This document shows positions 2,834-34,890 of a stretch of DNA of 64,000 bases, in pieces. Source of the DNA: Zygaena filipendulae. Lineage: Eukaryota; Arthropoda; Insecta; Lepidoptera; Zygaenidae. Below the pieces are notes generated by a model. That model was not told where the DNA came from, did no database searches, and saw nothing but the letters and a program-made list of their open reading frames with translations. Within the stretch, counting starts at the first letter, position 1; each line of letters starts with the position of its first letter. The DNA lies in contig OU015652.1 in assembly GCA_907165275.2 (NCBI GenBank), positions 4,231,001 to 4,295,000 of the forward strand. The letters run 5' to 3'. The translations under genes were made by a program, and so were the position numbers.

Positions 2834-3342
2834 TATAATAATAATACTATACTAGTAGGTAGTAGTGCACAAAACTATTCATCGCACACAAAAACATTAA
2901 TTAACGTAACGGTAACGAAATGTATTATACGCCGTCTGGTTAGGTTTTAACTTAGTCGTTGTTTACATAATTCACAGCTTCGGGAATATTGTGGAAAATA
3001 TTTACGGGATGCCAACAAAAGAAGTTTTTAAAATGTTAGAGCATTCGCTCTAACTTCCTTAGCAACCTTAGTGACCTGCCCACATGTCATCTCTAGTTAT
3101 TTCTTTTCTCTGTGCTTCTATCTAGGCCCAATCTAGACACATAATTATTATTTACCTAACCCAATAGCAGCTGTATTCGCATCGATTTACCTATACGTTA
3201 CATAATAATACTTAATTAATCTTCATTTCGGAATATAAAAAAAAAATATTAACCCATTATAATAAATTACCTATATTACTCTATTAAAAACCTATTTCAG
3301 TTCTTTTGTTTAATAGAAAATTTATTCATCCTTACATATTAT

Positions 3343-3690: not shown

Positions 3691-4915
3691 CGAAGAGAAA
3701 AACTTAAATTATATTTTTATATTAATTTCATACATACAGGTAATCTCAAACCGTAATAGGCAATAGCTGAAGACAAAAAGAAGTCGCAAAATATGTACAT
3801 AAATTACATTATAATATTACATAAATAAAATAACAGCGTCAAATGTAGCCAGAGACACGTACAGAAATAAACCACGAGACAAAATATTATTTCCGCGGAT
3901 ATTGGCCCGTGTCTGTCCGCAAATGCACAGCCGTGTTACGATAGATGTGAACGCATATGCATTGCATAGGAGAATATTCATCACGGCCCTATGTCGTCCA
4001 AGAGCGGACGTAGGCCTCCTCCAAACTCTTCCACGTCCGGCGATGTTGGGCCGTCGCCATCCAGTTTCGGCCTCCGTGTCGCCTGATATCGTCGACCCAC
4101 CGCCTAGGTGGTCGACCTCGCGGTCTGGTGTTAGTCCAAGGTCTCCACTCCAGCACTTTCCTGGTCCACTGAGCCTTGTCCATTCGTGCTATGTGCCCCG
4201 CACACATCCACTTCCGGTGGGCTATTGTCTCGACCACATCTCTCACGCCGGTCTAGCTCCGTATCCATTCATTTCGTTTGCGGTCGCGCAAAGTGATTCC
4301 AAGCATAGCTCTCTCCATTGCTCTTTGCGCGACTCTGAATTTCTCGGCGGATTGCACCGTGAGTGACATGGTTTCAGCTCCGTAAGTGAATACAGGCAGG
4401 ACACATTGCTCAAATACTTTTGCCTTCAGTGCGTTGGGCAACTTCCCGCGCAGGATACCTACGCTTATTGGCGCCAAAAGCAGCCCAGGCTTGGGAAATT
4501 CGTCGGTCTACTTCAGCCGTTTAGTTATTACTACCCAGCATAATTTATGGCCCAAATAGATGTATTCTTGAATGACTTCGACTGGGAGGAGATAGTTTTG
4601 TGCCTGTGGTATATTTGTGATAATTTTTGTCTTTGAAGTGTTAAATTTTAGGCCTACTTTTCGGGATTCGATTGTGATTTCCTCAAGCATCGCTATCATA
4701 TCTTCAACATTATCCGAGATTAGTACGAGATCGTCGGCAAATCTCAAGTTTGATAGTCGCTCGCCGTCAATAGTAACACCCCTCTCGTCCCAGGTTAACT
4801 CTAGGTCTGTATTAAATAGTTTCGTAGATATAGTGTCACCCTGGCGCACTCCTCTTCCTAATCGGAATTTGTCGGTCTTTTTGTGAAGATTAACGCATGC
4901 TGTAGCTATTACTTA
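3690..4915 (-). pseudogene. RTE-clade reverse transcriptase relic, 5'-truncated and frameshifted
   Basis: The minus-strand translation begins with RT motifs GVRQGDTIS, GVTIDGERLSNLRFADDLVL (catalytic FADD near 4735) and IYLGH in 4508-4849 (continuing upstream to about 4915). It continues in another frame through 4253-4477 (QCVLPVFTYGAETMSLT, VAQRAMERAMLGITLRDR) and in a third through 3989-4246 (WMCAGHIARM, RGRPPRRWVDDI, HRRTWKSLEEAYV). This order and wording is typical of insect RTE-type endonuclease-reverse transcriptases. The endonuclease and the N-terminal half of RT are missing, and at least two frameshifts break it. Plus-strand frames at 3902-4366 and 4617-4886 are antisense shadows. Confidence 0.85.
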
Positions 4916-15364: not shown

Positions 15365-15834
15365 AAAAAATTTTGCACAATGTTGAGGAAAACACCGATG
15401 GTTTGTATTTACGAGTACCTCGGTATGCTAGTTTAGGTTAGGTTTGAACTATGACCACAACGGAGTCAAATACTATCGATTTCCAATATCCGAGCATCCA
15501 CCACAACCATAACCACAACGCATTTCCTATTCTCGATATTACACAAATTCTAGGTGTTTAATGGAAGACTTATACGTATACAAGATGACAACAATAAAAC
15601 CTACTACACTATAGATATTGACTAGTAGAAAATCTCCACCTTTTTTATGAAATCAGTAAAGAGTATTTAGTTTTGCGCTCGTAGATGTTATGTATTTAAC
15701 GTTACCACCAGCCTTGGCTGAGTCGACAATCTTTTGTCGTTATCACTATAAAATAAGGAACTTACAGTCGTGTCACGAAAAATCGTAGTAAATTTTTGTA
15801 GCCACGTGGCATGATGATAATAATATGTTCCTTA
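15365..15834. other. Unassigned stretch
   Basis: AT-rich, no feature supported. Confidence 0.35.
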
Positions 15835-16071
15835 CCGCCGCACTCAGAGTCGACTTTAATGATTACTTAGTTAAGTATTGATTTTTAAAACAAAACTGCC
15901 GCAATCAGAGACGTTCAGTAAATTAATGTTAATTGGAATTTACTGAGATATAACATAATTAGTTAAATGCCAATTAACATTAATTTATTAAACTTGTCTG
16001 ATTGCGGCAGTTTTGTTTTAAAAATCTATACTTAACTAAGTAATCATTAAAGTCGACTCTGAGTGCGGCGA
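15835..16071. mobile_element. Harbinger-like MITE, copy 1
   Basis: CCGCCGCACTCAGAGTCGAC at the left is mirrored as GTCGACTCTGAGTGCGGCG at the right. Inner inverted matches include ATGATTACTTAGTTAAGTAT-like and AACAAAACTGCCGCAATCAG stretches. It is flanked by TTA on both sides (15832-15834, 16072-16074), a 3-bp TWA duplication as in PIF/Harbinger. The second copy is at 34651-34887. Confidence 0.75.
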
Positions 16072-16074
16072 TTA

Positions 16075-16854: not shown

Positions 16855-16863
16855 AATTTCATT
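16855..16863. other. 9-bp target-site duplication, left element (outer)
   Basis: AATTTCATT directly before the left element; its partner is at 25578-25586. Confidence 0.85.
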
Positions 16864-19176
16864 GGCGGTGTGAAGTTGGCCCCCCAATGTCAAAAAAAAA
16901 ATAAAATAAAGTGAGTTCTAGTGGCCCCCCACATAGTTCCGGAGTTCTTTATACTTTTTGGAAATAGTTCTGTTGTTTACATAGACCAAAAATGGTTTTT
17001 AAATAATGGGGGGCCAACTTCCCGATTTTCATATTTTACGGCCTTATACCGCGAAAATTATTAGTCAAATCGAAAAATGTTATAGAGATAATGTGTAGAA
17101 CTCTTTGGGGGGCCAACGGAACTCTTACAACAAAATCGATTTTTGAATATTTTATTTTTTTTCAAAATAATTAATTATTTTCATCTGAACCTAGCGTCTT
17201 TCCTATCGGTTATATCGAAATAAGTTATAGGAAAAACTAATAGAACTCTTTGAGGAGCACCTAGAAATCTAAGAAAAAAATTCATTTTCCGGAAACTAGA
17301 TGAAAATTGAGAAAAACTTTTTTTTTATACACAAGTTTTTAAAAAAATAGCATGAGTTCTAGTTGCCCCCCACATAGTTCTGAACATCTATATACATTTT
17401 AGAAATAGTTCTGTTGTTTACATAGTCCAAAAATGGTTTTGAAATAATTTCCCGATTTTCATATTTTACGGCCTTATACCGCGAAAAGTATTAGTCAAAT
17501 CGAAAAATGTTATAGGGATAATGTGTAGAACTCTTTGGGGGGCCAACGGAACTCTAACAAAAAAATCGATTTTTGAATATTTTATTTTTTTCCAAAATAA
17601 CTAATTATTTTCATCTGAACCTAGCGTCTTTCTTATCTGTTATATCGAAATAAGTTAGAAGAAAAACTTGTAGAACTCTTTGAGGGGCACCTAGAAATCT
17701 AAGAAAAAAATTCATTTTCCGGAAACTAGAAGAAAATTGAGAAAAACTTTTTTTTTATACACAAGTATTTAAAAAAATGGCATGAGTTCTAGTTGCCCCC
17801 CACATAGTTCTGAACATCTATATACATTTTGGAAATAGTTCTGTTGTTTACATAGACCAAAAATGGTTTTGAAATAATTGCCCAATTTTTTTACGGCCTT
17901 GTACCGCGAAAAGTATTAGTAAAATCGAAAAATGTTATAGGGATAATGTGTAGAACTCTTTGGGGGGCCAACGGAACTCTAACAAAAAAATCGATTTTTG
18001 AATATTTATTTTTTTCCAAAATAACTAATTATTTTCATCTGAACCTAGCGTCTTTCTTATCGGTTATATCGAAATAAGTTATAGGAAAAACTTGTAGAAC
18101 TCTTTGAGGGGCACCTAGAAATCTAAGAAAAAATCATATTTTCCGGAAACTCGATGAAAATTGAGAAAAACTTTTTTTTTATACACAAGTTTTTAAAAAA
18201 ATGGCATGAGTTCTGGTTGCCCCCCACATAGTTCTGAACATCTATAGACATTTTGGAGATAGTTCTGTTGTTTACATAGCCCAGAAATTGTTTTGAAATA
18301 ATTTCCCAATTTTTTTACGGCCTTGTACCGCGAAAAGTATTAGTCAAATCGAAAAATGTTATAGAGATAATGTGTAGAACTCTTTGGGGGGCCAACGGAA
18401 CTCTAACAAAAAAATCGATTTTTGAAATTATAATTTTTCCAAAATAACTAATTATTTTCATCTGAACCTAGCGTCTTTCTTATCGGTTATATCGAAATAA
18501 GTTAGAAGAAAAACTTGTAGAACTCTTTGAGGGGCACCTAGAAATCTAAGAAAAAATCACATTTTCCGGAAACTCGATGAAAATTGAGAAAAACTTTTTT
18601 TTTATACACAAGTTTTTAAAAAAATGGTATGAGTTCTGGTTGCCCCCCACATAGTTCTGAACATCTATATACATTTTAGAAATAGTTCTGTTGTTTACAT
18701 AGCCCAAAAATGGTTTTGAAATAATTTCCCAATTTTTTACGGCCTTGTACCGCGAAAAGTATTAGTCAAATCGAAAAATGTTATAGGGATAATGTGTAGA
18801 ACTCTTTGGAGGGCCAACGGAACTCTAACAAAAAAATCGATTTTTGAAATTATATTTTTTCCAAAATAACTAATTATTTTCATCTGAACCCAGCGTTTTT
18901 CTTATCGGTTATATCGAAATAAGTTAGAAAAAAAACTTGTAGAACTCTTTAAGGGGCACTTAGAAATTTAAGAAAAAATCACATTTTCCGGAAACTAGAT
19001 GAAAATTGAGAAGAACTTTTTTTTTATACACAAGTTTTTTAAAAAATGGCATGAGTTCTAGTTGCCCCCCATATAGTTCTGAACATCTATATACATTTTA
19101 GAAATAGTTCTGTTATTTACATGGACCAAAAATGGTTTTGAAATAATGGGGGACCAACTTGCCAATTTTCATGTAC
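16864..19176 (+). repeat. Tandem-unit arm (left arm of left element)
   Basis: The landmark CACATAGTTC recurs at 16930, 17371, 17801, 18225, 18648 and (as CATATAG) 19070, giving periods of 441, 430, 424, 423 and 422 bp. Each unit has a TTGGCCCCCCA-type block, the palindromic core AAAAATCGATTTTT, TACCGCGAAAAGTATTAGT and CGATATAACCGATAAG-like stretches. The same landmarks recur in mirror order in the other arm. Confidence 0.85.
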
Positions 19177-19201
19177 TACTACTACTACTACTACTACTAC
19201 T
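19175..19201 (+). repeat. (ACT)9 microsatellite
   Basis: Nine perfect ACT triplets at the inner edge of the arm. The same number is found in the other element at 32018-32044. Confidence 0.9.
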
Positions 19202-19515
19202 AAATTACTGTTATCGACGTCTGGTTTTGAGTTTTTTTTTTTTTTTAGTTTTGCCGTTCTTACTGCCTCTGTGCACCCTTGATCACTATGCCTTAAAGAT
19301 TGTAACTTTTTAATCTATAAATAATGTAATAAAAATGTAATTGATCGCTGTCTGTACATGGGAGATATAAGACAAAAAATATTATTGGGACCTTTATCAA
19401 CGCAATAGCACTGCATAACAATGATTGTTAGAATTTTTATCTTTTTTCATGTGCGTTTGTGCACGCTTATCTCAGAAATGGCTTATCTGATTTAGATGAA
19501 ATTTTTATTATGTAA

Positions 19516-19690
19516 CTAGCTGTTCCCCGTAGTTTCACCCACGTTAATTTCTGAGATCCCGCGAAAATTTCGGGATAAAAAGTACCTTTTATCCTTCTCT
19601 GTATCCCTGGCAACGTGTATGCAAAATTTCGTAATGATCGGTTTAACCGTTAAGGCGTGAAATTATAACAGACAGACAGACGTGAAAATA
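19516..19690 (-). mobile_element. Helitron-like remnant inside left FoldBack element
   Basis: Starts CTAGCTGTTCCCCGTAGTTT (3' end), then the usual TCCCG..GGGATAAAAAGTACC block, ending in GACAGACAGACG. It was present before the element duplicated, because the mirror copy has it too. Confidence 0.7.
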
Positions 19691-19698
19691 ATATTTTT

Positions 19699-22179
19699 TT
19701 ACTTCTTACTGATCGACCATCATCTGCTGGATTTCGGATCGGAGTTCTGGTTTAGTATCCAGTTCTAAATTGAAGATACCATACTGATCTGTGACAAATG
19801 CAGAAGTTCCGTCCTTCACGTGCTAGTGGAACTGTCAAAATAATATTGTTTTACTTTGTCTCGGCTCTACCATGATCAGATGGGTTTTAAACGGGAGTTC
19901 TGGTTTTCAATCCAGTTCTGTATCTAAGTTCTGATATTCGTCTGTGAGATACGAAGGAGTTCCGAGCTTCACGTGCTGGTGGAACTGTTAAAATATTTTT
20001 TTTAAACTTTTTAACTGCTCTACCATGATCTGCTGGATTTTGAAACGGAGTTCTGGATTTTTATCCAGGTCCTAATTGAAGATGTTATACTGATCTATGA
20101 GAAACAAAGGAGTTCCCGCCTTCACGTGCTAGTGGAACTGTTAAAATATATTTTTTTTTACTTTTTAACTGCTCTACCATGATCTGCTGGATTTTGAAAC
20201 GGAGTTCTGGATTTTTATCCAGGTCCCAATTGAAGATGTTATACTGATCTATGAGAAACAAAGGAGATCCCGCCTTCACATGCTAGTGGAACTGTTAAAA
20301 TATATTTTTTTTACTTTTTAACTGCTCTACCATGATCTGCTGGATTTTGAAACGGAGTTTTGGATTTTTATCCAGGTCCTAATTGAAGATATTATACTGA
20401 TCTATGAGAAACAAAGGAGTTCGCGCCTTCACGTGCTAGTGGAAATGTTAAAATATATATTTTTTTACTTTCTAACTGCTCTACTGTAATCTGCTGGATT
20501 TCGGATCGGAGTTTTGGTTTAGTATCCAGTTCTAAATTGAAGATGCCATACTGATCTGTGAGAAACGCAGAAGTTCCGTCCTTCACGTGCTAGTGGAACT
20601 GTCAAAATAATATTGTTTTACTTTGTCTCGGCTCTACTATGATCAGATGGGTTTTAAACGGGAGTTCTGGTTTTCAATCCAGTTCTGTATCTAAGTTTTG
20701 ATACTGGTCTGTGAGATACGAAGGAGTTCCGCCCTTCACGTGCTGGTGGAACTGTTAAAATAATATTTTTTTACTTTCTAGCTGCTCTACCATGATCTGC
20801 TGGATTTTGAACCAGATTTCTGGATTCGTATCCAGTTTTAAATTGAAGATGTCATACTTACCTGTGAGAAACGAAGGATATCCGTCCTTCACGTGCTAGT
20901 GGAACTGTTAAAATATTTTTTTTTTTTACTTTTTAACTGCTCTACCAAGATCTGCTGGAGTTCGAAACAGAGTTCTGGATTCGTGTCCGGTTCTAAATTG
21001 AAGATATCATAGTGATCTACGAGAAACCAAGGAGGTCCCGCCTTCACGTGCTAGTGGAACTGTTAAAATAATATTTTTTAAATTTTTCTCGGCTCTACCA
21101 TGATCAAATGGGTTTTAAACGGGAGTTCTAGTTTTTAATCTAGTTCTGTATCTAAGTTCTGATACTGGTCTATGAAATACTAAGGAGTTCCGCCCTTCAC
21201 GTGCTAGTGGAACTGTTAAAATAATATTTTTTTTACTTTTATGCTGCTCTACCATGATCTCCTGGATTTGAACCGGATTTCTGGATTCGTATCCAGTTTT
21301 AAATTGAAGATGTCATACTTACCTGTGAGAAACGAAGGATTTCCGTCCTTCACGTGCTAGTGGAACTGTTAAAATAATATTTTTTTTACTTTTTAACTGC
21401 TCTACCAAGATCTGCTGGAGTTCGGAACAGAGTTCTAGATTCGTGTCCGGTTCTAAATTGAAGATATCATAGTGATCTGTGAGAAACCAAGCAGTTCCCG
21501 CCTTCACGTGCTAGTGGAACTGTTAAAATAATATTCTTTACCTTTTTCTCGGCTCTACCATGATCAGATGGGTTTTAAACGGGAGTTCTGGTTTTTAATC
21601 TAGTTCTGTATCTAAGTTCTGATACTGGTATATGAAATACTAAGGAGTACCGCCCTTCACGTGCTAGTAGAACTGTTAAAATAATATTTTTTTTACTTTT
21701 ATGCTGCTCTACCATGATCTCCTGGATTTGAACCGGATTTCTGGATTCGTATCCAGTTTTAAATTGAAGATGTCATACTTACCTGTGAGAAACAAAGGAT
21801 TTCCGTCCTTCACGTGCTAGTGGAACTGTTAAAATAATATTTTTTTACTTTTTAACTGCTCTACCAAGATCTGCTGGAGTTCGGAACAGAGTTCTAGATT
21901 CGTGTCTGGTTCTAAATTGAAGATATCATAGTGATCTGTGAGAAACCAAGGAGTTCCCGCCTTCGCGTGCTAGTGGAACTGTTAAAATAATATTTTTTAA
22001 CTTTTTCTCAGCTCTACCATGATCAGATGGGTTTTAAATGGGAGTTCTGGTTTTTAATCTAGTTCTGTATCTAAGTTCTGATACTGGTCTATGAGATACG
22101 AAGGAGTTCCGCCCTTCACGTGCTGGTGGAACTGTTAAAATAATACTTTTTTCCTTTTTAACTGCTCTACCATGACGGC
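19699..22179 (-). repeat. 153-bp minisatellite with higher-order organisation (left element)
   Basis: Mirror copy of 29040-31520: sixteen units, described there. Short open frames such as 20085-20279, 20392-20586 and 21319-21507 are windows on this repeat and not genes. Confidence 0.85.
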
Positions 22180-22660
22180 CAGAGCTCTTGTTTCTTACAG
22201 ATCAGTAACAGGTCTTCAATTAAGAACTGGATACGAATCCAGCACTCCCGTTTAAAGTCCAGCAGATCATGGTAGAGAAATAATAATTAATATTAATATT
22301 GCTTGAACATTATCACATTATCATCTAGTATAGTCCCAAACTAAAAAGAAATATTGGTTTTAAACTAATGAGGGACCAACTTCCCAATTAAATTTTTTGC
22401 GGTCTTGTACCGACAAAAGTATTAATAAAATCGAAAAATGTTATAATTTGTAGTAAAACTCTTTGGGGTCAACCGAAACTTCAAAAGAAAAATTGGTTTT
22501 TTATTATATTATTATGATTGACGTAGATTTTTTTTAATTATTTTCTTTTTTTGGTGTTATTTTTTATAACGCGTCGGTCCGGATTCCAGAGATAATCCCA
22601 TCGTGCATCTATTTCATACTTGTGGCCGTCGCGAGCAAATCCTCACCGTCTCCCTCTTAA

Positions 22661-23210
22661 TAGAATAGAATAGAATAGAATAGAATAGAATACACTTTAT
22701 TGTACACCAAAATAATGTTACAGTGTGTTAACAAAAACTTATAACTAAAGGCATACAAAAGGCGGTCTTATCGCTTTACTAGCGATCTCTTCCAGACAAC
22801 CTTTGGGTGGACAGGACAACTACAGAAAATTTATATGTTGATAGGTAGAATAGGAATCATAAAATAATACAAAATATGCACATAGAACATAAATATAAAA
22901 AAATAAAAATACATAAGAAGATATACAAAGATACACGCATAGATATAAAATATACATACAGAAAAATATATATAGATAGATAAAATACATAATGTGATTA
23001 CATACAATATATTATATATCAACAGCATACGTAACTAAAATTAAAATAAATATTAATTAATACGTTACATACATAGATACATAAATACGCACTCACATAT
23101 ACATACATACACATACATACGCAATCTTAATCCCTTATTTTATAATTTTATCAGACCTTAGGAGGTAAACCCGCAGTCAGAGAGAAGGTAATCACTACGT
23201 TTTCCCGCCA
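22661..23210 (-). mobile_element. LINE 3' tail inside left FoldBack element
   Basis: Minus-oriented. Read 5' to 3' it has TTGTCTGGAAGAGATCGC, AAGCGATAAGACCGCC and GTGTACAATAAAGTGT, then (TTCTA)6. This is the 3' UTR and short-repeat tail common in lepidopteran non-LTR elements. About 550 bp with no RT-coding part; it interrupts the inner end of the arm near 23210. Confidence 0.7.
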
Positions 23211-23217
23211 AAGAGTT

Positions 23218-25577
23218 CTACACATTATCCCTATAACATTTTTCGATTTGACTAATACTTTTCGCGGTACAAGGCCGTAAAAAAATTGGGAAATTATTTC
23301 AAAACCAGTTTTGGTCTATGTAAACAACAGAACTATTTCCAAAATGTCTATAGATGTTCAGAACTATGTGGAGGGCAACCAGAACTCATGCCATTTTTTT
23401 AAAAACTTGTGTATAAAAAAAAGTTTTTCTCAATTTTCATCGAGTTTCCGGAAAATGTGATTTTTTCTTAGATTTCTAGGTGCCCCTCAAAGAGTTCTAC
23501 AAGTTTTTCTTCTAACTTATTTCGATATAACCGATAAGAAAGACGCTAGGTTCAGATGAAAATAATTAGTTATTTTGGAAAAATTATAATTTCAAAAATC
23601 GATTTTTTTGTTAGAGTTCCGTTGGCCCCCCAAAGAGTTCTACACATTATCTCTATAACATTTTTCGATTTGACTAATACTTTTCGCGGTACAAGGCCGT
23701 AAAAAAATTGGGAAATTATTTCAAAACAATTTCTGGGCTATGTAAACAACAGAACTATCTCCAAAATGTCTATAGATGTTCAGAACTATGTGGGGGGCAA
23801 CCAGAACTCATGCCATTTTTTTAAAAACTTGTGTATAAAAAAAAAGTTTTTCTCAATTTTCATCGAGTTTCCGGAAAATGTGATTTTTTCTTAGATTTCT
23901 AGGTGCCCCTCAAAGAGTTCTACAAGTTTTTCCTATAACTTATTTCGATATAACCGATAAGAAAGACGCTAGGTTCAGATGAAAATAATTAGTTATTTTG
24001 GAAAAAAATAAATATTCAAAAATCGATTTTTTTGTTAGAGTTCCGTTGGCCCCCCAAAGAGTTCTACACATTATCCCTATAACATTTTTCGATTTTACTA
24101 ATACTTTTCGCGGTACAAGGCCGTAAAAAAATTGGGCAATTATTTCAAAACCATTTTTGGTCTATGTAAACAACAGAACTATTTCCAAAATGTATATAGA
24201 TGTTCAGAACTATGTGGGGGGCAACTAGAACTCATGCCATTTTTTTAAAAACTTGTGTATATAAAAAAAGTTTTTCTCAATTTTCATCGAGTTTCCGGAA
24301 AATGTGTTTTTTTCTTAGATTTTTAGGTGTCCCTTAAAGAGTTCTACAAGTTTTTCCTATAACTTATTTCGATATAACTGATAAGAAAGACGCTAGGTTC
24401 AGATGAAAATAATTAGTTATTTTGGAAAAAAATAAATATTCAAAAATCGATTTTTTTGTTAGAGTTCCGTTGGCCCCCCAAAGAGTTCTACACATTATTT
24501 CTTTAACATTTTTCGATTTGACTAATACTTTTCGCGGTACAAGGCCGTAAAAAAATTGGGAAATTATTTCAAAACCATTTTTGGGCTAGGTAAACAACAG
24601 AACTATTTCCAAAATGTATATAGATGTTCAGAACTATGTGGGGGGCAACTAGAACTCATGCCATTTTTTTAAATACTTGTGTATAAAAAAAAAGTTTTTC
24701 TCAATTTTCTTCTAGTTTCCGGAAAATGAATTTTTTTCTTAGATTTCTAGGTGCCCCTCAAAGAGTTCTACAAGTTTTTCTTCTAACTTATTTCGATATA
24801 ACAGATAAGAAAGACGCTAGGTTCAGATGAAAATAATTAGTTATTTTGGAAAAAAATAAAATATTCAAAAATCGATTTTTTTGTTAGAGTTCCGTTGGCC
24901 CCCCAAAGAGTTCTACACATTATCCCTATAACATTTTTCGATTTGACTAATACTTTTCGCGGTATAAGGCCGTAAAATATGAAAATCGGGAAATTATTTC
25001 AAAACCATTTTTGGACTATGTAAACAACAGAACTATTTCTAAAATGTATATAGATGTTCAGAACTATGTGGGGGGCAACTAGAACTCATGCTATTTTTTT
25101 AAAAACTTGTGTATAAAAAAAAAGTTTTTCTCAATTTTCATCTAGTTTCCGGAAAATGAATTTTTTTCTTAGATTTCTAGGTGCTCCTCAAAGAGTTCTA
25201 TAAGTTTTTCCTATAACTTATTTCGATATAACCGATAGGAAAGACGCTAGGTTCAGATGAAAATAATTAATTATTTTGAAAAAAAATAAAATATTCAAAA
25301 ATCGATTTTTTTGTAAGAGTTCCGTTGGCCCCCCAAAGAGTTCTACACATTATCTCTATAACATTTTTCGATTTGACTAATAATTTTCGCGGTATAAGGC
25401 CGTAAAATATGAAAATCGGGAAGTTGGCCCCCCATTATTTCAAAACCATTTTTGGTCTATGTAAACAACAGAACTATTTCCAAAAAGTATAAAGAACTCC
25501 GGAACTATGTGGGGGGCCACTAGAACTCACTTTATTTTATTTTTTTTTTGACATTGGGGGGCCAACTTCACACCGCC
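23218..25577 (-). repeat. Tandem-unit arm (right arm of left element)
   Basis: GAACTATGTGG recurs at 23361, 23783, 24207, 24631, 25061 and 25502. The periods 422, 424, 424, 430 and 441 repeat the left-arm series in reverse. The arm reaches slightly further inward than its partner and is interrupted at its inner end by the LINE tail. Confidence 0.85.
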
Positions 25578-25641
25578 AATTTCATTATATTTATTTGTAT
25601 TGATTTACCACTATTTGCGGAATTACTACTAGGTAAGGTAT
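25578..25641. other. 64-bp spacer between the two inverted elements, with both inner target-site duplications
   Basis: AATTTCATT (25578-25586), 46 bp of unique AT-rich host sequence, then GTAAGGTAT (25633-25641). Removing both elements and one duplication copy each joins 16863, this spacer and 34365 into a continuous empty site. It is the loop of a potential cruciform with 8.7 kb arms. Confidence 0.85.
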
Positions 25642-28001
25642 GGCGGTGTGAAGTTGGCCCCCCAATGTCAAAAAAAAAATAAAATAAAGTGAGTTCTAGT
25701 GGCCCCCCACATAGTTCCGGAGTTCTTTATACTTTTTGGAAATAGTTCTGTTGTTTACATAGACCAAAAATGGTTTTGAAATAATGGGGGGCCAACTTCC
25801 CGATTTTCATATTTTACGGCCTTATACCGCGAAAATTATTAGTCAAATCGAAAAATGTTATAGAGATAATGTGTAGAACTCTTTGGGGGGCCAACGGAAC
25901 TCTTACAAAAAAATCGATTTTTGAATATTTTATTTTTTTTCAAAATAATTAATTATTTTCATCTGAACCTAGCGTCTTTCCTATCGGTTATATCGAAATA
26001 AGTTATAGGAAAAACTTATAGAACTCTTTGAGGAGCACCTAGAAATCTAAGAAAAAAATTCATTTTCCGGAAACTAGATGAAAATTGAGAAAAACTTTTT
26101 TTTTATACACAAGTTTTTAAAAAAATAGCATGAGTTCTAGTTGCCCCCCACATAGTTCTGAACATCTATATACATTTTAGAAATAGTTCTGTTGTTTACA
26201 TAGTCCAAAAATGGTTTTGAAATAATTTCCCGATTTTCATATTTTACGGCCTTATACCGCGAAAAGTATTAGTCAAATCGAAAAATGTTATAGGGATAAT
26301 GTGTAGAACTCTTTGGGGGGCCAACGGAACTCTAACAAAAAAATCGATTTTTGAATATTTTATTTTTTTCCAAAATAACTAATTATTTTCATCTGAACCT
26401 AGCGTCTTTCTTATCTGTTATATCGAAATAAGTTAGAAGAAAAACTTGTAGAACTCTTTGAGGGGCACCTAGAAATCTAAGAAAAAAATTCATTTTCCGG
26501 AAACTAGAAGAAAATTGAGAAAAACTTTTTTTTTATACACAAGTATTTAAAAAAATGGCATGAGTTCTAGTTGCCCCCCACATAGTTCTGAACATCTATA
26601 TACATTTTGGAAATAGTTCTGTTGTTTACCTAGCCCAAAAATGGTTTTGAAATAATTTCCCAATTTTTTTACGGCCTTGTACCGCGAAAAGTATTAGTCA
26701 AATCGAAAAATGTTAAAGAAATAATGTGTAGAACTCTTTGGGGGGCCAACGGAACTCTAACAAAAAAATCGATTTTTGAATATTTATTTTTTTCCAAAAT
26801 AACTAATTATTTTCATCTGAACCTAGCGTCTTTCTTATCAGTTATATCGAAATAAGTTATAGGAAAAACTTGTAGAACTCTTTAAGGGACACCTAAAAAT
26901 CTAAGAAAAAAACACATTTTCCGGAAACTCGATGAAAATTGAGAAAAACTTTTTTTATATACACAAGTTTTTAAAAAAATGGCATGAGTTCTAGTTGCCC
27001 CCCACATAGTTCTGAACATCTATATACATTTTGGAAATAGTTCTGTTGTTTACATAGACCAAAAATGGTTTTGAAATAATTGCCCAATTTTTTTACGGCC
27101 TTGTACCGCGAAAAGTATTAGTAAAATCGAAAAATGTTATAGGGATAATGTGTAGAACTCTTTGGGGGGCCAACGGAACTCTAACAAAAAAATCGATTTT
27201 TGAATATTTATTTTTTTCCAAAATAACTAATTATTTTCATCTGAACCTAGCGTCTTTCTTATCGGTTATATCGAAATAAGTTATAGGAAAAACTTGTAGA
27301 ACTCTTTGAGGGGCACCTAGAAATCTAAGAAAAAATCACATTTTCCGGAAACTCGATGAAAATTGAGAAAAACTTTTTTTTTATACACAAGTTTTTAAAA
27401 AAATGGCATGAGTTCTGGTTGCCCCCCACATAGTTCTGAACATCTATAGACATTTTGGAGATAGTTCTGTTGTTTACATAGCCCAGAAATTGTTTTGAAA
27501 TAATTTCCCAATTTTTTTACGGCCTTGTACCGCGAAAAGTATTAGTCAAATCGAAAAATGTTATAGAGATAATGTGTAGAACTCTTTGGGGGGCCAACGG
27601 AACTCTAACAAAAAAATCGATTTTTGAAATTATAATTTTTCCAAAATAACTAATTATTTTCATCTGAACCTAGCGTCTTTCTTATCGGTTATATCGAAAT
27701 AAGTTAGAAGAAAAACTTGTAGAACTCTTTGAGGGGCACCTAGAAATCTAAGAAAAAATCACATTTTCCGGAAACTCGATGAAAATTGAGAAAAACTTTT
27801 TTTTATACACAAGTTTTTAAAAAAATGGCATGAGTTCTGGTTGCCCTCCACATAGTTCTGAACATCTATAGACATTTTGGAAATAGTTCTGTTGTTTACA
27901 TAGACCAAAACTGGTTTTGAAATAATTTCCCAATTTTTTTACGGCCTTGTACCGCGAAAAGTATTAGTCAAATCGAAAAATGTTATAGGGATAATGTGTA
28001 G
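25642..28001 (+). repeat. Tandem-unit arm (inner arm of right element)
   Basis: Mirror image of 23218-25577: the same units and the same terminal GGCGGTGTGAAGTTGGCCCC. Confidence 0.85.
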
Positions 28002-28008
28002 AACTCTT

Positions 28009-28558
28009 TGGCGGGAAAACGTAGTGATTACCTTCTCTCTGACTGCGGGTTTACCTCCTAAGGTCTGATAAAATTATAAAATAAGGGATTAAGATTGCGT
28101 ATGTATGTGTATGTATGTATATGTGAGTGCGTATTTATGTATCTATGTATGTAACGTATTAATTAATATTTATTTTAATTTTAGTTACGTATGCTGTTGA
28201 TATATAATATATTGTATGTAATCACATTATGTATTTTATCTATCTATATATATTTTTCTGTATGTATATTTTATATCTATGCGTGTATCTTTGTATATCT
28301 TCTTATGTATTTTTATTTTTTTATATTTATGTTCTATGTGCATATTTTGTATTATTTTATGATTCCTATTCTACCTATCAACATATAAATTTTCTGTAGT
28401 TGTCCTGTCCACCCAAAGGTTGTCTGGAAGAGATCGCTAGTAAAGCGATAAGACCGCCTTTTGTATGCCTTTAGTTATAAGTTTTTGTTAACACACTGTA
28501 ACATTATTTTGGTGTACAATAAAGTGTATTCTATTCTATTCTATTCTATTCTATTCTA
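28009..28558 (+). mobile_element. LINE 3' tail inside right FoldBack element
   Basis: Mirror of 22661-23210, with AATAAAGTGT followed by (ATTCT)n at 28520-28560. The 65-codon frame at 28191-28388 is AT-rich noise within it. Confidence 0.7.
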
Positions 28559-29039
28559 TTAAGAGGGAGACGGTGAGGATTTGCTCGCGACGGCCACAAG
28601 TATGAAATAGATGCACGATGGGATTATCTCTGGAATCCGGACCGACGCGTTATAAAAAATAACACCAAAAAAAGAAAATAATTAAAAAAAATCTACGTCA
28701 ATCATAATAATATAATAAAAAACCAATTTTTCTTTTGAAGTTTCGGTTGACCCCAAAGAGTTTTACTACAAATTATAACATTTTTCGATTTTATTAATAC
28801 TTTTGTCGGTACAAGACCGCAAAAAATTTAATTGGGAAGTTGGTCCCTCATTAGTTTAAAACCAATATTTCTTTTTAGTTTGGGACTATACTAGATGATA
28901 ATGTGATAATGTTCAAGCAATATTAATATTAATTATTATTTCTCTACCATGATCTGCTGGACTTTAAACGGGAGTGCTGGATTCGTATCCAGTTCTTAAT
29001 TGAAGACCTGTTACTGATCTGTAAGAAACAAGAGCTCTG

Positions 29040-31520
29040 GCCGTCATGGTAGAGCAGTTAAAAAGGAAAAAAGTATTATTTTAACAGTTCCACCAGCACG
29101 TGAAGGGCGGAACTCCTTCGTATCTCATAGACCAGTATCAGAACTTAGATACAGAACTAGATTAAAAACCAGAACTCCCATTTAAAACCCATCTGATCAT
29201 GGTAGAGCTGAGAAAAAGTTAAAAAATATTATTTTAACAGTTCCACTAGCACGCGAAGGCGGGAACTCCTTGGTTTCTCACAGATCACTATGATATCTTC
29301 AATTTAGAACCAGACACGAATCTAGAACTCTGTTCCGAACTCCAGCAGATCTTGGTAGAGCAGTTAAAAAGTAAAAAAATATTATTTTAACAGTTCCACT
29401 AGCACGTGAAGGACGGAAATCCTTTGTTTCTCACAGGTAAGTATGACATCTTCAATTTAAAACTGGATACGAATCCAGAAATCCGGTTCAAATCCAGGAG
29501 ATCATGGTAGAGCAGCATAAAAGTAAAAAAAATATTATTTTAACAGTTCTACTAGCACGTGAAGGGCGGTACTCCTTAGTATTTCATATACCAGTATCAG
29601 AACTTAGATACAGAACTAGATTAAAAACCAGAACTCCCGTTTAAAACCCATCTGATCATGGTAGAGCCGAGAAAAAGGTAAAGAATATTATTTTAACAGT
29701 TCCACTAGCACGTGAAGGCGGGAACTGCTTGGTTTCTCACAGATCACTATGATATCTTCAATTTAGAACCGGACACGAATCTAGAACTCTGTTCCGAACT
29801 CCAGCAGATCTTGGTAGAGCAGTTAAAAAGTAAAAAAAATATTATTTTAACAGTTCCACTAGCACGTGAAGGACGGAAATCCTTCGTTTCTCACAGGTAA
29901 GTATGACATCTTCAATTTAAAACTGGATACGAATCCAGAAATCCGGTTCAAATCCAGGAGATCATGGTAGAGCAGCATAAAAGTAAAAAAAATATTATTT
30001 TAACAGTTCCACTAGCACGTGAAGGGCGGAACTCCTTAGTATTTCATAGACCAGTATCAGAACTTAGATACAGAACTAGATTAAAAACTAGAACTCCCGT
30101 TTAAAACCCATTTGATCATGGTAGAGCCGAGAAAAATTTAAAAAATATTATTTTAACAGTTCCACTAGCACGTGAAGGCGGGACCTCCTTGGTTTCTCGT
30201 AGATCACTATGATATCTTCAATTTAGAACCGGACACGAATCCAGAACTCTGTTTCGAACTCCAGCAGATCTTGGTAGAGCAGTTAAAAAGTAAAAAAAAA
30301 AAATATTTTAACAGTTCCACTAGCACGTGAAGGACGGATATCCTTCGTTTCTCACAGGTAAGTATGACATCTTCAATTTAAAACTGGATACGAATCCAGA
30401 AATCTGGTTCAAAATCCAGCAGATCATGGTAGAGCAGCTAGAAAGTAAAAAAATATTATTTTAACAGTTCCACCAGCACGTGAAGGGCGGAACTCCTTCG
30501 TATCTCACAGACCAGTATCAAAACTTAGATACAGAACTGGATTGAAAACCAGAACTCCCGTTTAAAACCCATCTGATCATAGTAGAGCCGAGACAAAGTA
30601 AAACAATATTATTTTGACAGTTCCACTAGCACGTGAAGGACGGAACTTCTGCGTTTCTCACAGATCAGTATGGCATCTTCAATTTAGAACTGGATACTAA
30701 ACCAAAACTCCGATCCGAAATCCAGCAGATTACAGTAGAGCAGTTAGAAAGTAAAAAAATATATATTTTAACATTTCCACTAGCACGTGAAGGCGCGAAC
30801 TCCTTTGTTTCTCATAGATCAGTATAATATCTTCAATTAGGACCTGGATAAAAATCCAAAACTCCGTTTCAAAATCCAGCAGATCATGGTAGAGCAGTTA
30901 AAAAGTAAAAAAAATATATTTTAACAGTTCCACTAGCATGTGAAGGCGGGATCTCCTTTGTTTCTCATAGATCAGTATAACATCTTCAATTGGGACCTGG
31001 ATAAAAATCCAGAACTCCGTTTCAAAATCCAGCAGATCATGGTAGAGCAGTTAAAAAGTAAAAAGAAATATATTTTAACAGTTCCACTAGCACGTGAAGG
31101 CGGGAACTCCTTTGTTTCTCATAGATCAGTATAACATCTTCAATTAGGACCTGGATAAAAATCCAGAACTCCGTTTCAAAATCCAGCAGATCATGGTAGA
31201 GCAGTTAAAAAGTTTAAAAAAAATATTTTAACAGTTCCACCAGCACGTGAAGCTCGGAACTCCTTCGTATCTCACAGACGAATATCAGAACTTAGATACA
31301 GAACTGGATTGAAAACCAGAACTCCCGTTTAAAACCCATCTGATCATGGTAGAGCCGAGACAAAGTAAAACAATATTATTTTGACAGTTCCACTAGCACG
31401 TGAAGGACGGAACTTCTGCATTTGTCACAGATCAGTATGGTATCTTCAATTTAGAACTGGATACTAAACCAGAACTCCGATCCGAAATCCAGCAGATGAT
31501 GGTCGATCAGTAAGAAGTAA
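29040..31520 (+). repeat. 153-bp minisatellite with higher-order ABC organisation (right element)
   Basis: The CACGTG of each unit starts at 29097, 29250 (CACGCG), 29403, 29556, 29709, 29863, 30016, 30169, 30324, 30477, 30630, 30784, 30938 (CATGTG), 31091, 31244 and 31397, so the spacing is 153-155 bp. The first nine units cycle through three types. A has GAAGGGCGGAACTCC and AACTTAGATACAGAAC; B has GCGGGAACTCCTTGG; C has GGACGGAAATCC and CACAGGTAAGT. Then follow A, D, three E-like units, A and D. Every unit carries TTTTAACAGTTCCAC, an AGTTCC/GGAACT inverted repeat and usually GATCATGGTAGAGC. The unit length is 51 codons and one frame is open except for a TAA and a TAG near the unit junction, so it may derive from coding sequence; the source protein is not recognised. 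Confidence 0.85.
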
Positions 31521-31528
31521 AAAAATAT

Positions 31529-31703
31529 TATTTTCACGTCTGTCTGTCTGTTATAATTTCACGCCTTAACGGTTAAACCGATCATTACGAAATTTTGCAT
31601 ACACGTTGCCAGGGATACAGAGAAGGATAAAAGGTACTTTTTATCCCGAAATTTTCGCGGGATCTCAGAAATTAACGTGGGTGAAACTACGGGGAACAGC
31701 TAG
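31529..31703 (+). mobile_element. Helitron-like remnant inside right FoldBack element
   Basis: Mirror of 19516-19690, ending GGGGAACAGCTAG. Confidence 0.7.
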
Positions 31704-32017
31704 TTACATAATAAAAATTTCATCTAAATCAGATAAGCCATTTCTGAGATAAGCGTGCACAAACGCACATGAAAAAAGATAAAAATTCTAACAATCATTG
31801 TTATGCAGTGCTATTGCGTTGATAAAGGTCCCAATAATATTTTTTGTCTTATATCTCCCATGTACAGACAGCGATCAATTACATTTTTATTACATTATTT
31901 ATAGATTAAAAAGTTACAATCTTTAAGGCATAGTGATCAAGGGTGCACAGAGGCAGTAAGAACGGCAAAACTAAAAAAAAAAAAAAACTCAAAACCAGAC
32001 GTCGATAACAGTAATTT

Positions 32018-32044
32018 AGTAGTAGTAGTAGTAGTAGTAGTAGT
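32018..32044 (-). repeat. (AGT)9 microsatellite
   Basis: Mirror of 19175-19201 with identical repeat number. Confidence 0.9.
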
Positions 32045-34355
32045 ACATGAAAATTGGCAAGTTGGTCCCCCATTATTTCAAAACCATTTTTGGTCCATGT
32101 AAATAACAGAACTATTTCTAAAATGTATATAGATGTTCAGAACTATATGGGGGGCAACTAGAACTCATGCCATTTTTTAAAAAACTTGTGTATAAAAAAA
32201 AAGTTCTTCTCAATTTTCATCTAGTTTCCGGAAAATGTGATTTTTTCTTAAATTTCTAAGTGCCCCTTAAAGAGTTCTACAAGTTTTTTTTCTAACTTAT
32301 TTCGATATAACCGATAAGAAAAACGCTGGGTTCAGATGAAAATAATTAGTTATTTTGGAAAAAATATAATTTCAAAAATCGATTTTTTTGTTAGAGTTCC
32401 GTTGGCCCTCCAAAGAGTTCTACACATTATCCCTATAACATTTTTCGATTTGACTAATACTTTTCGCGGTACAAGGCCGTAAAAAATTGGGAAATTATTT
32501 CAAAACCATTTTTGGGCTATGTAAACAACAGAACTATTTCTAAAATGTATATAGATGTTCAGAACTATGTGGGGGGCAACCAGAACTCATACCATTTTTT
32601 TAAAAACTTGTGTATAAAAAAAAAGTTTTTCTCAATTTTCATCGAGTTTCCGGAAAATGTGATTTTTTCTTAGATTTCTAGGTGCCCCTCAAAGAGTTCT
32701 ACAAGTTTTTCTTCTAACTTATTTCGATATAACCGATAAGAAAGACGCTAGGTTCAGATGAAAATAATTAGTTATTTTGGAAAAATTATAATTTCAAAAA
32801 TCGATTTTTTTGTTAGAGTTCCGTTGGCCCCCCAAAGAGTTCTACACATTATCTCTATAACATTTTTCGATTTGACTAATACTTTTCGCGGTACAAGGCC
32901 GTAAAAAAATTGGGAAATTATTTCAAAACAATTTCTGGGCTATGTAAACAACAGAACTATCTCCAAAATGTCTATAGATGTTCAGAACTATGTGGGGGGC
33001 AACCAGAACTCATGCCATTTTTTTAAAAACTTGTGTATAAAAAAAAAGTTTTTCTCAATTTTCATCGAGTTTCCGGAAAATATGATTTTTTCTTAGATTT
33101 CTAGGTGCCCCTCAAAGAGTTCTACAAGTTTTTCCTATAACTTATTTCGATATAACCGATAAGAAAGACGCTAGGTTCAGATGAAAATAATTAGTTATTT
33201 TGGAAAAAAATAAATATTCAAAAATCGATTTTTTTGTTAGAGTTCCGTTGGCCCCCCAAAGAGTTCTACACATTATCCCTATAACATTTTTCGATTTTAC
33301 TAATACTTTTCGCGGTACAAGGCCGTAAAAAAATTGGGCAATTATTTCAAAACCATTTTTGGTCTATGTAAACAACAGAACTATTTCCAAAATGTATATA
33401 GATGTTCAGAACTATGTGGGGGGCAACTAGAACTCATGCCATTTTTTTAAATACTTGTGTATAAAAAAAAAGTTTTTCTCAATTTTCTTCTAGTTTCCGG
33501 AAAATGAATTTTTTTCTTAGATTTCTAGGTGCCCCTCAAAGAGTTCTACAAGTTTTTCTTCTAACTTATTTCGATATAACAGATAAGAAAGACGCTAGGT
33601 TCAGATGAAAATAATTAGTTATTTTGGAAAAAAATAAAATATTCAAAAATCGATTTTTTTGTTAGAGTTCCGTTGGCCCCCCAAAGAGTTCTACACATTA
33701 TCCCTATAACATTTTTCGATTTGACTAATACTTTTCGCGGTATAAGGCCGTAAAATATGAAAATCGGGAAATTATTTCAAAACCATTTTTGGACTATGTA
33801 AACAACAGAACTATTTCTAAAATGTATATAGATGTTCAGAACTATGTGGGGGGCAACTAGAACTCATGCTATTTTTTTAAAAACTTGTGTATAAAAAAAA
33901 AGTTTTTCTCAATTTTCATCTAGTTTCCGGAAAATGAATTTTTTTCTTAGATTTCTAGGTGCTCCTCAAAGAGTTCTATTAGTTTTTCCTATAACTTATT
34001 TCGATATAACCGATAGGAAAGACGCTAGGTTCAGATGAAAATAATTAATTATTTTGAAAAAAAATAAAATATTCAAAAATCGATTTTGTTGTAAGAGTTC
34101 CGTTGGCCCCCCAAAGAGTTCTACACATTATCTCTATAACATTTTTCGATTTGACTAATAATTTTCGCGGTATAAGGCCGTAAAATATGAAAATCGGGAA
34201 GTTGGCCCCCCATTATTTAAAAACCATTTTTGGTCTATGTAAACAACAGAACTATTTCCAAAAAGTATAAAGAACTCCGGAACTATGTGGGGGGCCACTA
34301 GAACTCACTTTATTTTATTTTTTTTTTGACATTGGGGGGCCAACTTCACACCGCC
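32043..34355 (-). repeat. Tandem-unit arm (outer arm of right element)
   Basis: Mirror image of 16864-19176, including its private substitutions. Confidence 0.85.
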
Positions 34356-34364
34356 GTAAGGTAT
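34356..34364. other. 9-bp target-site duplication, right element (outer)
   Basis: GTAAGGTAT directly after the right element; its partner is at 25633-25641. Confidence 0.85.
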
Positions 34365-34647
34365 AGGTTACTGAACGACCTGTATGTATAGTCGCGGGGG
34401 CTAAACGAGCCGAGGGGGTTAAATTCGGCGTTGTTAAAATTTGTTTAGGTAATTAAATTTTATAGCATCCCACTTTTCATTAATAAGGTAATTCTTTGTA
34501 CTTGAATAAAAGTTTTAGAAGGTACCTTTATAATAGTTTATCATAACTGTTTTAGTAGGTATATGAAATATTACGATTTAGGATTGGTTTTTTGCTATCA
34601 ATATCAACAAGACAGATGTATTATTTTTACACAAGCAAATATGATAC
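34365..34647. other. Unassigned stretch after the FoldBack pair
   Basis: No feature supported. Confidence 0.35.
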
Positions 34648-34650
34648 TTA

Positions 34651-34887
34651 CGGCCGCACTCAGAGTCGACATTAATGATTACTTAGTTAAGTATAGATTT
34701 TTTAAACAAAACTGCCGCAGTCAGAGACTTTCAGTAAATTAATGTTAATTGGCATTTAATGAGATGTAACTTAATTAGTTAAATGCCAATTAACATTCAT
34801 TTATTAAACTTGTCTGATTGCGGCAATTTTGTTTTAAAAATCTATACTTAACTAAGTAATCATTAAAGTCGACTCTGAGTACGGCGG
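34651..34887. mobile_element. Harbinger-like MITE, copy 2
   Basis: Same element as 15835-16071 in the same orientation, flanked by TTA (34648-34650, 34888-34890). The terminal bases of the two ends differ slightly (CGGCCGCAC versus CCGCCGTAC read inward). Confidence 0.75.
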
Positions 34888-34890
34888 TTA

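Follow-up and report, generated by a model that had tools for sequence, protein, structure and literature searches.

An inverted pair of FoldBack-type transposon copies with separate target duplications in Zygaena filipendulae: a probable case of local transposition

Two elements in opposite orientation, each with its own target duplication

The stretch of DNA analysed here (the window) comprises 64,000 nucleotides from the lepidopteran Zygaena filipendulae (contig OU015652.1, positions 4,231,001 to 4,295,000 of the forward strand). It contains two copies, L and R, of an apparently non-autonomous FoldBack-type transposon, which lie in opposite orientation. The layout of the locus is as follows, with the duplications as read in the sequence.

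16855..16863, + strand: left target duplication of L, AATTTCATT
16864..25577, + strand: element L, 8,714 bp, a FoldBack-type transposon that is apparently non-autonomous
25578..25586, + strand: right target duplication of L, AATTTCATT
25587..25632, + strand: 46-bp spacer between the target duplications, with a 27-base piece that is single copy in the assembly
25633..25641, + strand: left target duplication of R, GTAAGGTAT
25642..34355, - strand: element R, 8,714 bp, identical to reverse-complemented L except at one base
34356..34364, + strand: right target duplication of R, GTAAGGTAT

The flank order is AATTTCATT, L, AATTTCATT and then GTAAGGTAT, R, GTAAGGTAT, and both 9-bp duplications are exact. 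The elements are separated by 64 bp (9+46+9), with the target duplications 46 bp apart and the target sites 55 bp apart (9 + 46). At the composition of the window, a random 9-bp match has a probability of approximately 8e-6 per flank pair. When L was compared without gaps to the reverse complement of R, we found a single mismatch in 8,714 positions, and the mirror centre of the pair lies at 25609.5; coordinates, equal lengths and symmetry thus agree with the original prediction for this DNA. The sole difference is at element position 3291 (window position 20154 in L, 31065 in R). The base found in R is also present in the sibling copies L054 and L062 and, at the matching place of the array, in many other copies, and the change would be either derived in L or a base-call error within a T run. 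As assembled, L and R form a near-perfect palindrome of about 17.5 kb in total, in which a centre of 64 bp separates two arms of 8.7 kb.

The original prediction held that the elements arrived by two separate insertions in opposite orientation, and this is borne out by the four junctions, by the two different 9-bp duplications, and by the fact that 9 bp is the normal scar of the family genome-wide. An inverted duplication of one insertion, which it had already set aside, would leave one common scar, as would a composite move of the pair; since the outer and inner flanks differ, both are excluded. Removal of both elements restores a clean flank-spacer-flank sequence, the empty site that had been expected. 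In R the inverted state is seen already at the arm-specific sites 137, 268 and 376, so the opposite orientation is original unless a crossover took place in the outer 136 bp. In the host assembly, which has 56 contigs and 365,880,709 bases, the 27-base spacer piece is found once when up to 3 mismatches are allowed, indicating that the assembly contains no second version of the locus. The observation is real, and the earlier reading of it was largely right.

The family in the host assembly

The 18-bp end of the elements was found 95 times in the assembly at up to 1 mismatch (90 exact), against 0 for a reversed control, which would correspond to a family of about 48 copies. The ends were paired by position, giving 38 complete copies with flanks read: L, R, and sets of 21, 12 and 3 others. 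The remaining 19 of the 95 ends are unpaired, 16 of them with unread flanks and 3 belonging to a cluster on C30. Exact 9-bp duplications flank 36 of the 38 paired copies, L and R included. Whether other copies carry such duplications had been named in advance as a check that could refute the reading; 34 of the 36 others do (19/21, 12/12 and 3/3 in the respective sets). The family looks recently active.

Paired copies range in length from 312 bp (on C23) to 15,970 bp (on C31). The shortest (L094, C23:5160437-5160748) is a miniature with an exact 9-bp duplication and one mismatch in one of its ends; it is too short to contain the internal arrays, which suggests that these may be dispensable for mobility. 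Two copies of 14.09 kb (C48:71302-85389 and C53:88937-103028) differ by 4 bp in length and have different 9-bp duplications. In the C30 cluster (C30:1440940-1494352, L101-L103) three ends have unmatched flanks; two possible pairs were tried, neither has a duplication, and the ends were counted as unpaired. One right end there abuts sequence that resembles the inner edge of a family arm, which would fit the insertion of one element into another. A target preference was examined in 33 duplications (31 others plus those of L and R, with C48, C53 and C31 left out), and these lean towards C as the first base and G as the ninth (31/66). Outside the host, longer patterns were searched along with the 18-bp end, and the three element patterns gave 0 matches in IMG/VR. 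Matches of the 18-bp end itself in IMG/VR (3) and in prokaryote genomes (24) were rejected as chance, the surrounding match being at most 28 bp long in the best 60 alignment rows.

Kinship of L and R

Both elements carry a nested insertion at the same place:

22662..23124, + strand: insertion of 463 bp nested in L, ending on one side in (AATAG)n and flanked by the 7-bp duplication TCTTAAT (22655-22661 and 23125-23131)
28095..28557, - strand: its counterpart at the matching position of R, with 7-bp duplications at 28088-28094 and 28558-28564

The filled left junction of this insertion occurs twice in the whole assembly (up to 2 mismatches), both times within the window. The corresponding empty-site pattern occurs 28 times, 26 times inside paired copies and twice in the C30 cluster. 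Of the copies read whole other than L and R, 21 in number, 18 show the empty site, whereas L056, L057 and L064 lack the site in either form. A 52-bp segment of another locus (L072:3202-3253) matches a portion of the nested insertion at 98% identity; the insertion accordingly belongs to a repeat dispersed in the genome.

Differences to L were counted in full alignments with six copies: R (1 in 8,714), L054 (32 in 8,235), L036 (34 in 7,200), L062 (58 in 7,864), L043 (130 in 7,805) and L061 (167 in 8,203). At the divergence of L054, 33.9 differences between L and R would be expected, and the probability of finding at most one is approximately 7e-14. L054, L062 and L036, which among the copies read are nearest to L and R, each contain a 424-bp unit near element position 905 that is missing from both L and R. 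Among the 38 paired copies only L and R have equal length; the other 36 lengths are all distinct, the smallest gap being the 4 bp between the C48 and C53 copies. In 1.07 kb of the core, where the median divergence is 1.4% over the 205 pairs with enough data, L054, L062 and L036 form a young group with the window copies at 0-0.28%, and differ from the latter by 0.09-0.19%. No other copy in the assembly is as closely related to L or to R as these two are to one another, and the nested insertion is exclusive to them; this kinship adds to what the original prediction had proposed.

Origin of the pair

How did two such close relatives come to lie 55 bp apart? If an assumed 45 copies were inserted uniformly, 3.5e-4 pairs within 64 bp would be expected. 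Since chance adjacency is this rare and the kinship of L and R is this close, a local jump is the simplest account: one of the two copies most likely arose from the other by local transposition over 55 bp into the opposite orientation, each insertion leaving its own 9-bp scar. We give this reading a probability of roughly 0.7. The event may be pictured as follows. A transposase made elsewhere in the genome, probably Mutator-like, would bind the ends and perhaps repeated motifs in the arms. One copy would be cut from a freshly replicated chromatid and would enter a target close by, either behind the fork or on the sister chromatid, while the donor chromatid would retain its copy or have it restored by sister-templated repair.

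Local hopping is stated for Tc1/mariner, P and Ac elements (PMC2874221), which speaks for this reading; the papers listed by a literature search for close inverted pairs made in this way contained no matching case. A number of observations weigh against local transposition. The precedent would come from other superfamilies and not from this one. Tight pairs are not common in the family, the next closest paired copies being 22 kb apart, with the caveat that an unpaired end on C30 lies directly beside sequence like that of the family arms. The mild C/G preference at the edges is not followed by the duplication of L or by that of R, and two copies, at C26:64851-76581 and C21:8188754 (L056), have no 9-bp duplication. 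The transposase was not found: the assembly contains 10 loci with the PF10551 domain of Mutator-like elements (MULEs), but none of the 10 lies inside the 38 paired copies, and the 12-base family end is absent from all 10 (approximately 3.2 kb each) at up to 1 mismatch. Finally, the order of the two insertions would not be readable, as the lone L-derived base fits either order or a base-call error.

The identity of L and R could also be explained by a lost donor, that is, a third copy with the nested insertion that seeded both in one burst and is now gone or on the other haplotype. The young subfamily of L054, L062 and L036 implies several recent moves and so favours this scenario. However, no third junction of the nested insertion is present in the assembly, and two independent arrivals within 64 bp are still required; we consider it rather unlikely. 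The pair might alternatively be an assembly chimera, in which a haplotype with only L and a haplotype with only R were joined through the spacer. The assembly has one version of the locus, and the 64-bp common stretch is the sole bridge that such a join requires. Against this, an overlap of 64 bp would be too short for long-read overlap assembly, the spacer piece is single, with no second version of the locus beside it, and the occurrence of closest kin at sites 55 bp apart would still need explanation, which makes a chimera quite improbable. Least probable of all is that chance neighbours inserted at different times were made identical by arm-to-arm gene conversion: conversion is known to act on long inverted repeats separated by a short spacer and could keep L and R identical, but the adjacency itself would have to be due to chance (approximately 3.5e-4 pairs expected), and conversion would have to span 8.7 kb including the 463-bp insertion and the 424-bp unit, halt exactly at the ends and spare both scars.

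Internal anatomy of the elements

Besides the nested insertions, the elements contain the following parts.

16864..19147, + strand: left arm of L with a length of 2,284 bp, made up of the outer end and tandem 424-bp units (array 17034-19147)
19685..22175, + strand: core array of L, 153-bp units, 16.3 copies, three-unit higher-order period
22173..22309, - strand: diverged inverted partial unit of the core array
22355..22513, + strand: diverged arm-like fragment within the core, 76-79% identical to arm units, in left-arm orientation
23198..25577, - strand: right arm of L, inverted, tandem array 23204-25529
29044..31534, - strand: core array of R

The inverted arms (element positions 1-2284 and 8714-6430) are 97.3% alike in a linear alignment. 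With a length of approximately 2.3 kb and about five 424-bp units each, they are arms of the FoldBack type. Compared unit by unit, left units 0 and 1 correspond to right units 0 and 1 (99.5%), left 2 to right 3 (99.5%) and left 3 to right 4 (98.4%), which amounts to a one-unit register shift between the arms after the second unit; local realignment with cheap gaps did not recover this shift. An apparent homogenisation of the outer 988 bp of the arms (P 2e-10) was dropped, since the unit comparison shows the register shift and the alignment with siblings the missing unit. Homogenisation of the arms within elements was likewise rejected: over 480 bp, identity within elements (0.979) hardly differs from that between elements (0.976), and the within-element value reached the best between-element value in 2 of 23 copies.

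In the core array, the mean identity between units peaks at lag three (0.883) and lag six (0.863), whereas the remaining lags as far as seven give 0.78-0.81, indicating a three-unit higher-order repeat. The array is followed by the inverted partial unit and the arm-like fragment, a succession which suggests that the element may have grown in layers. Two short motifs recur in the elements. One is GGGGGGCCAAC, which corresponds to part of the terminal sequence read in reverse; there are 13 occurrences per element and 0 elsewhere in the window. AGAACT occurs 5 times in one arm unit, and 6 and 5 times in two 460-bp repeats of the core; when 2,000 first-order Markov resample pairs were drawn, a count of five in both members was never reached by a hexamer of at least three different letters. 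Both motifs are likely candidates for transposase binding. CACGTG is found 14 times per element, always in the 153-bp core array, and 15 times in the window outside the pair.

Coding capacity and classification

A search for stop-to-stop frames of 150 aa gave none in the 23 copies read whole. Among three longer copies read in part, one of 15 kb has a 153-aa frame; the search left out the interiors of the copies over 14 kb on C48, C53 and C31. As the copies read have no long open frames, the family is apparently non-autonomous. A 73-aa frame in the arm had no protein relatives in the searched set.

The ten PF10551 loci were examined for a possible link to the family. Searched internally for inverted ends flanked by a matching duplication of 8-10 bp, these loci of approximately 3.2 kb yielded none, and L072 has one 12-mer of the family end at two mismatches. 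L070 and L073 have frames of 596 and 598 aa, respectively, with the MULE domain above the cut-off; a SWIM finger scores above the cut-off in L070 and below it in L073, and no sequence link between these two loci and the FoldBack-type family was found. A search of the host with the profile PF00872 gave 0 matches at E 0.001 (3 candidates scored), although the L073 MULE protein passes the PF00872 cut-off. Three further MULE-domain loci (L067, L068 and L069) are at least 99.79% identical over at least 2.4 kb and have open frames of 459-796 aa; this coding MULE family looks recently active in the genome.

The original prediction assigned the elements to the FoldBack/Mutator-like group. The duplication size found in 36 of 38 copies agrees with that of Mutator-like elements (8-11 bp, usually 9 bp, in the sources seen) and of the Rehavkus group, but not with the 7 bp given for Galileo of the P superfamily. 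Merlin elements have 8-9 bp duplications and an IS1595-type DDE transposase (PF12762). We place the family as FoldBack-type with Mutator-like scars. Arms and scar size thus fit the assignment; MULE membership itself is likely, but it is unproven, because the copies read contain no transposase and because FoldBack-like arms are described as having arisen in several superfamilies (PMC3169594). The kind of element is already known, while for the family itself no description was found: the papers listed for Rehavkus, and for FoldBack and Mutator-like/MULE-NOF elements in Lepidoptera, gave none in titles and beginnings of abstracts, a search that did not cover Repbase and Dfam, and the 12-base end retrieved only one paper, unrelated by its title.

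Comparison with known systems

Tetris of Drosophila virilis, placed in Mutator by its authors, is described as sharing several features with the family, namely apparent non-autonomy, arms of tandem units, 8-10 bp duplications and the absence of coding sequence (PMC4079207). Its arm units measure 220 bp, against 424 bp here, and the passages on Tetris mention neither a 153-bp higher-order core array nor a tight inverted pair. The Rehavkus group resembles the family in its 9-bp duplications, internal minisatellite and insect hosts; according to the same account, however, its arms are 26-400 bp long, a range exceeded by the approximately 2.3 kb of L and R, and it has a PHD-finger transposase, of which none was found in the copies read (PMC6446971). 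The Rehavkus minisatellite is described as preceding the 3' arm. In L and R, whose polarity could be read only with a transposase gene, the 153-bp array is separated from the arms by approximately 0.5 kb on one side and 1 kb on the opposite side.

Tm1, a Mutator/FoldBack family of root-knot nematodes, is similar in having mostly 9-bp duplications (45 of 53 complete copies are reported with 8-10 bp), tandem arms whose unit number differs between the ends, and non-coding copies; it differs in its units of approximately 14 bp, its end motifs and the existence of a coding form, Tm1-A (PMC3169594). Galileo of Drosophila, a P-superfamily element, likewise has long arms, in which tandem repeats grow and contract, and some of its copies have non-matching flanks, called "chimeric" by the authors, which resemble the two exceptions lacking a 9-bp duplication here; its duplications are of 7 bp, not 9 bp (PMC3573991). 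Since Galileo has such arms as a member of the P superfamily, arm architecture alone does not fix the superfamily. The MULE Muta1 of Aedes aegypti shares 8-9 bp duplications and subterminal tandem repeats in its arms, and its transposase is stated to mobilise non-autonomous relatives, but it has 145-bp arms with 12-bp units and encodes a transposase (PMC5225508). In a survey of MULEs in 4,268 arthropod genomes, arms of 24-1,193 bp are given for complete lepidopteran elements (PMC13359780); those of L and R are longer, but belong to non-coding copies.

Implications

Close inverted transposon pairs are usually ambiguous, as they may reflect chance, duplication or assembly. In the present case, two different scars and a nested insertion found only in this pair demonstrate two separate insertions by closest kin, and the evidence for this kinship is unusually clean, so that local transposition in a natural genome becomes nearly readable from sequence alone. 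The palindrome is predicted to be unstable and, if transcribed, to be a source of long double-stranded RNA. In maize, Mu killer is a partial inverted duplication for which a hairpin RNA has been proposed (PMC3440606). One might speculate, by analogy, that this FoldBack family hops locally head to head, and that one short hop could create a 17.5-kb palindrome, a self-made source of double-stranded RNA and chromosome rearrangements and thus an animal counterpart of Mu killer; we regard this as doubtful. With copies from 312 bp to 16 kb, the family should be useful for the hunt for its transposase and for estimating how long palindromes survive.

Other features of the window

A 253-bp self-complementary repeat flanks the pair, at window positions 15822-16074 and 34638-34890. 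The two repeats are 93.7% identical and look like two copies of a small miniature inverted-repeat transposable element, placed asymmetrically about the palindrome. A reverse transcriptase fragment is encoded at window positions 4508-4912 on the - strand (PF00078, E 4.7e-10).

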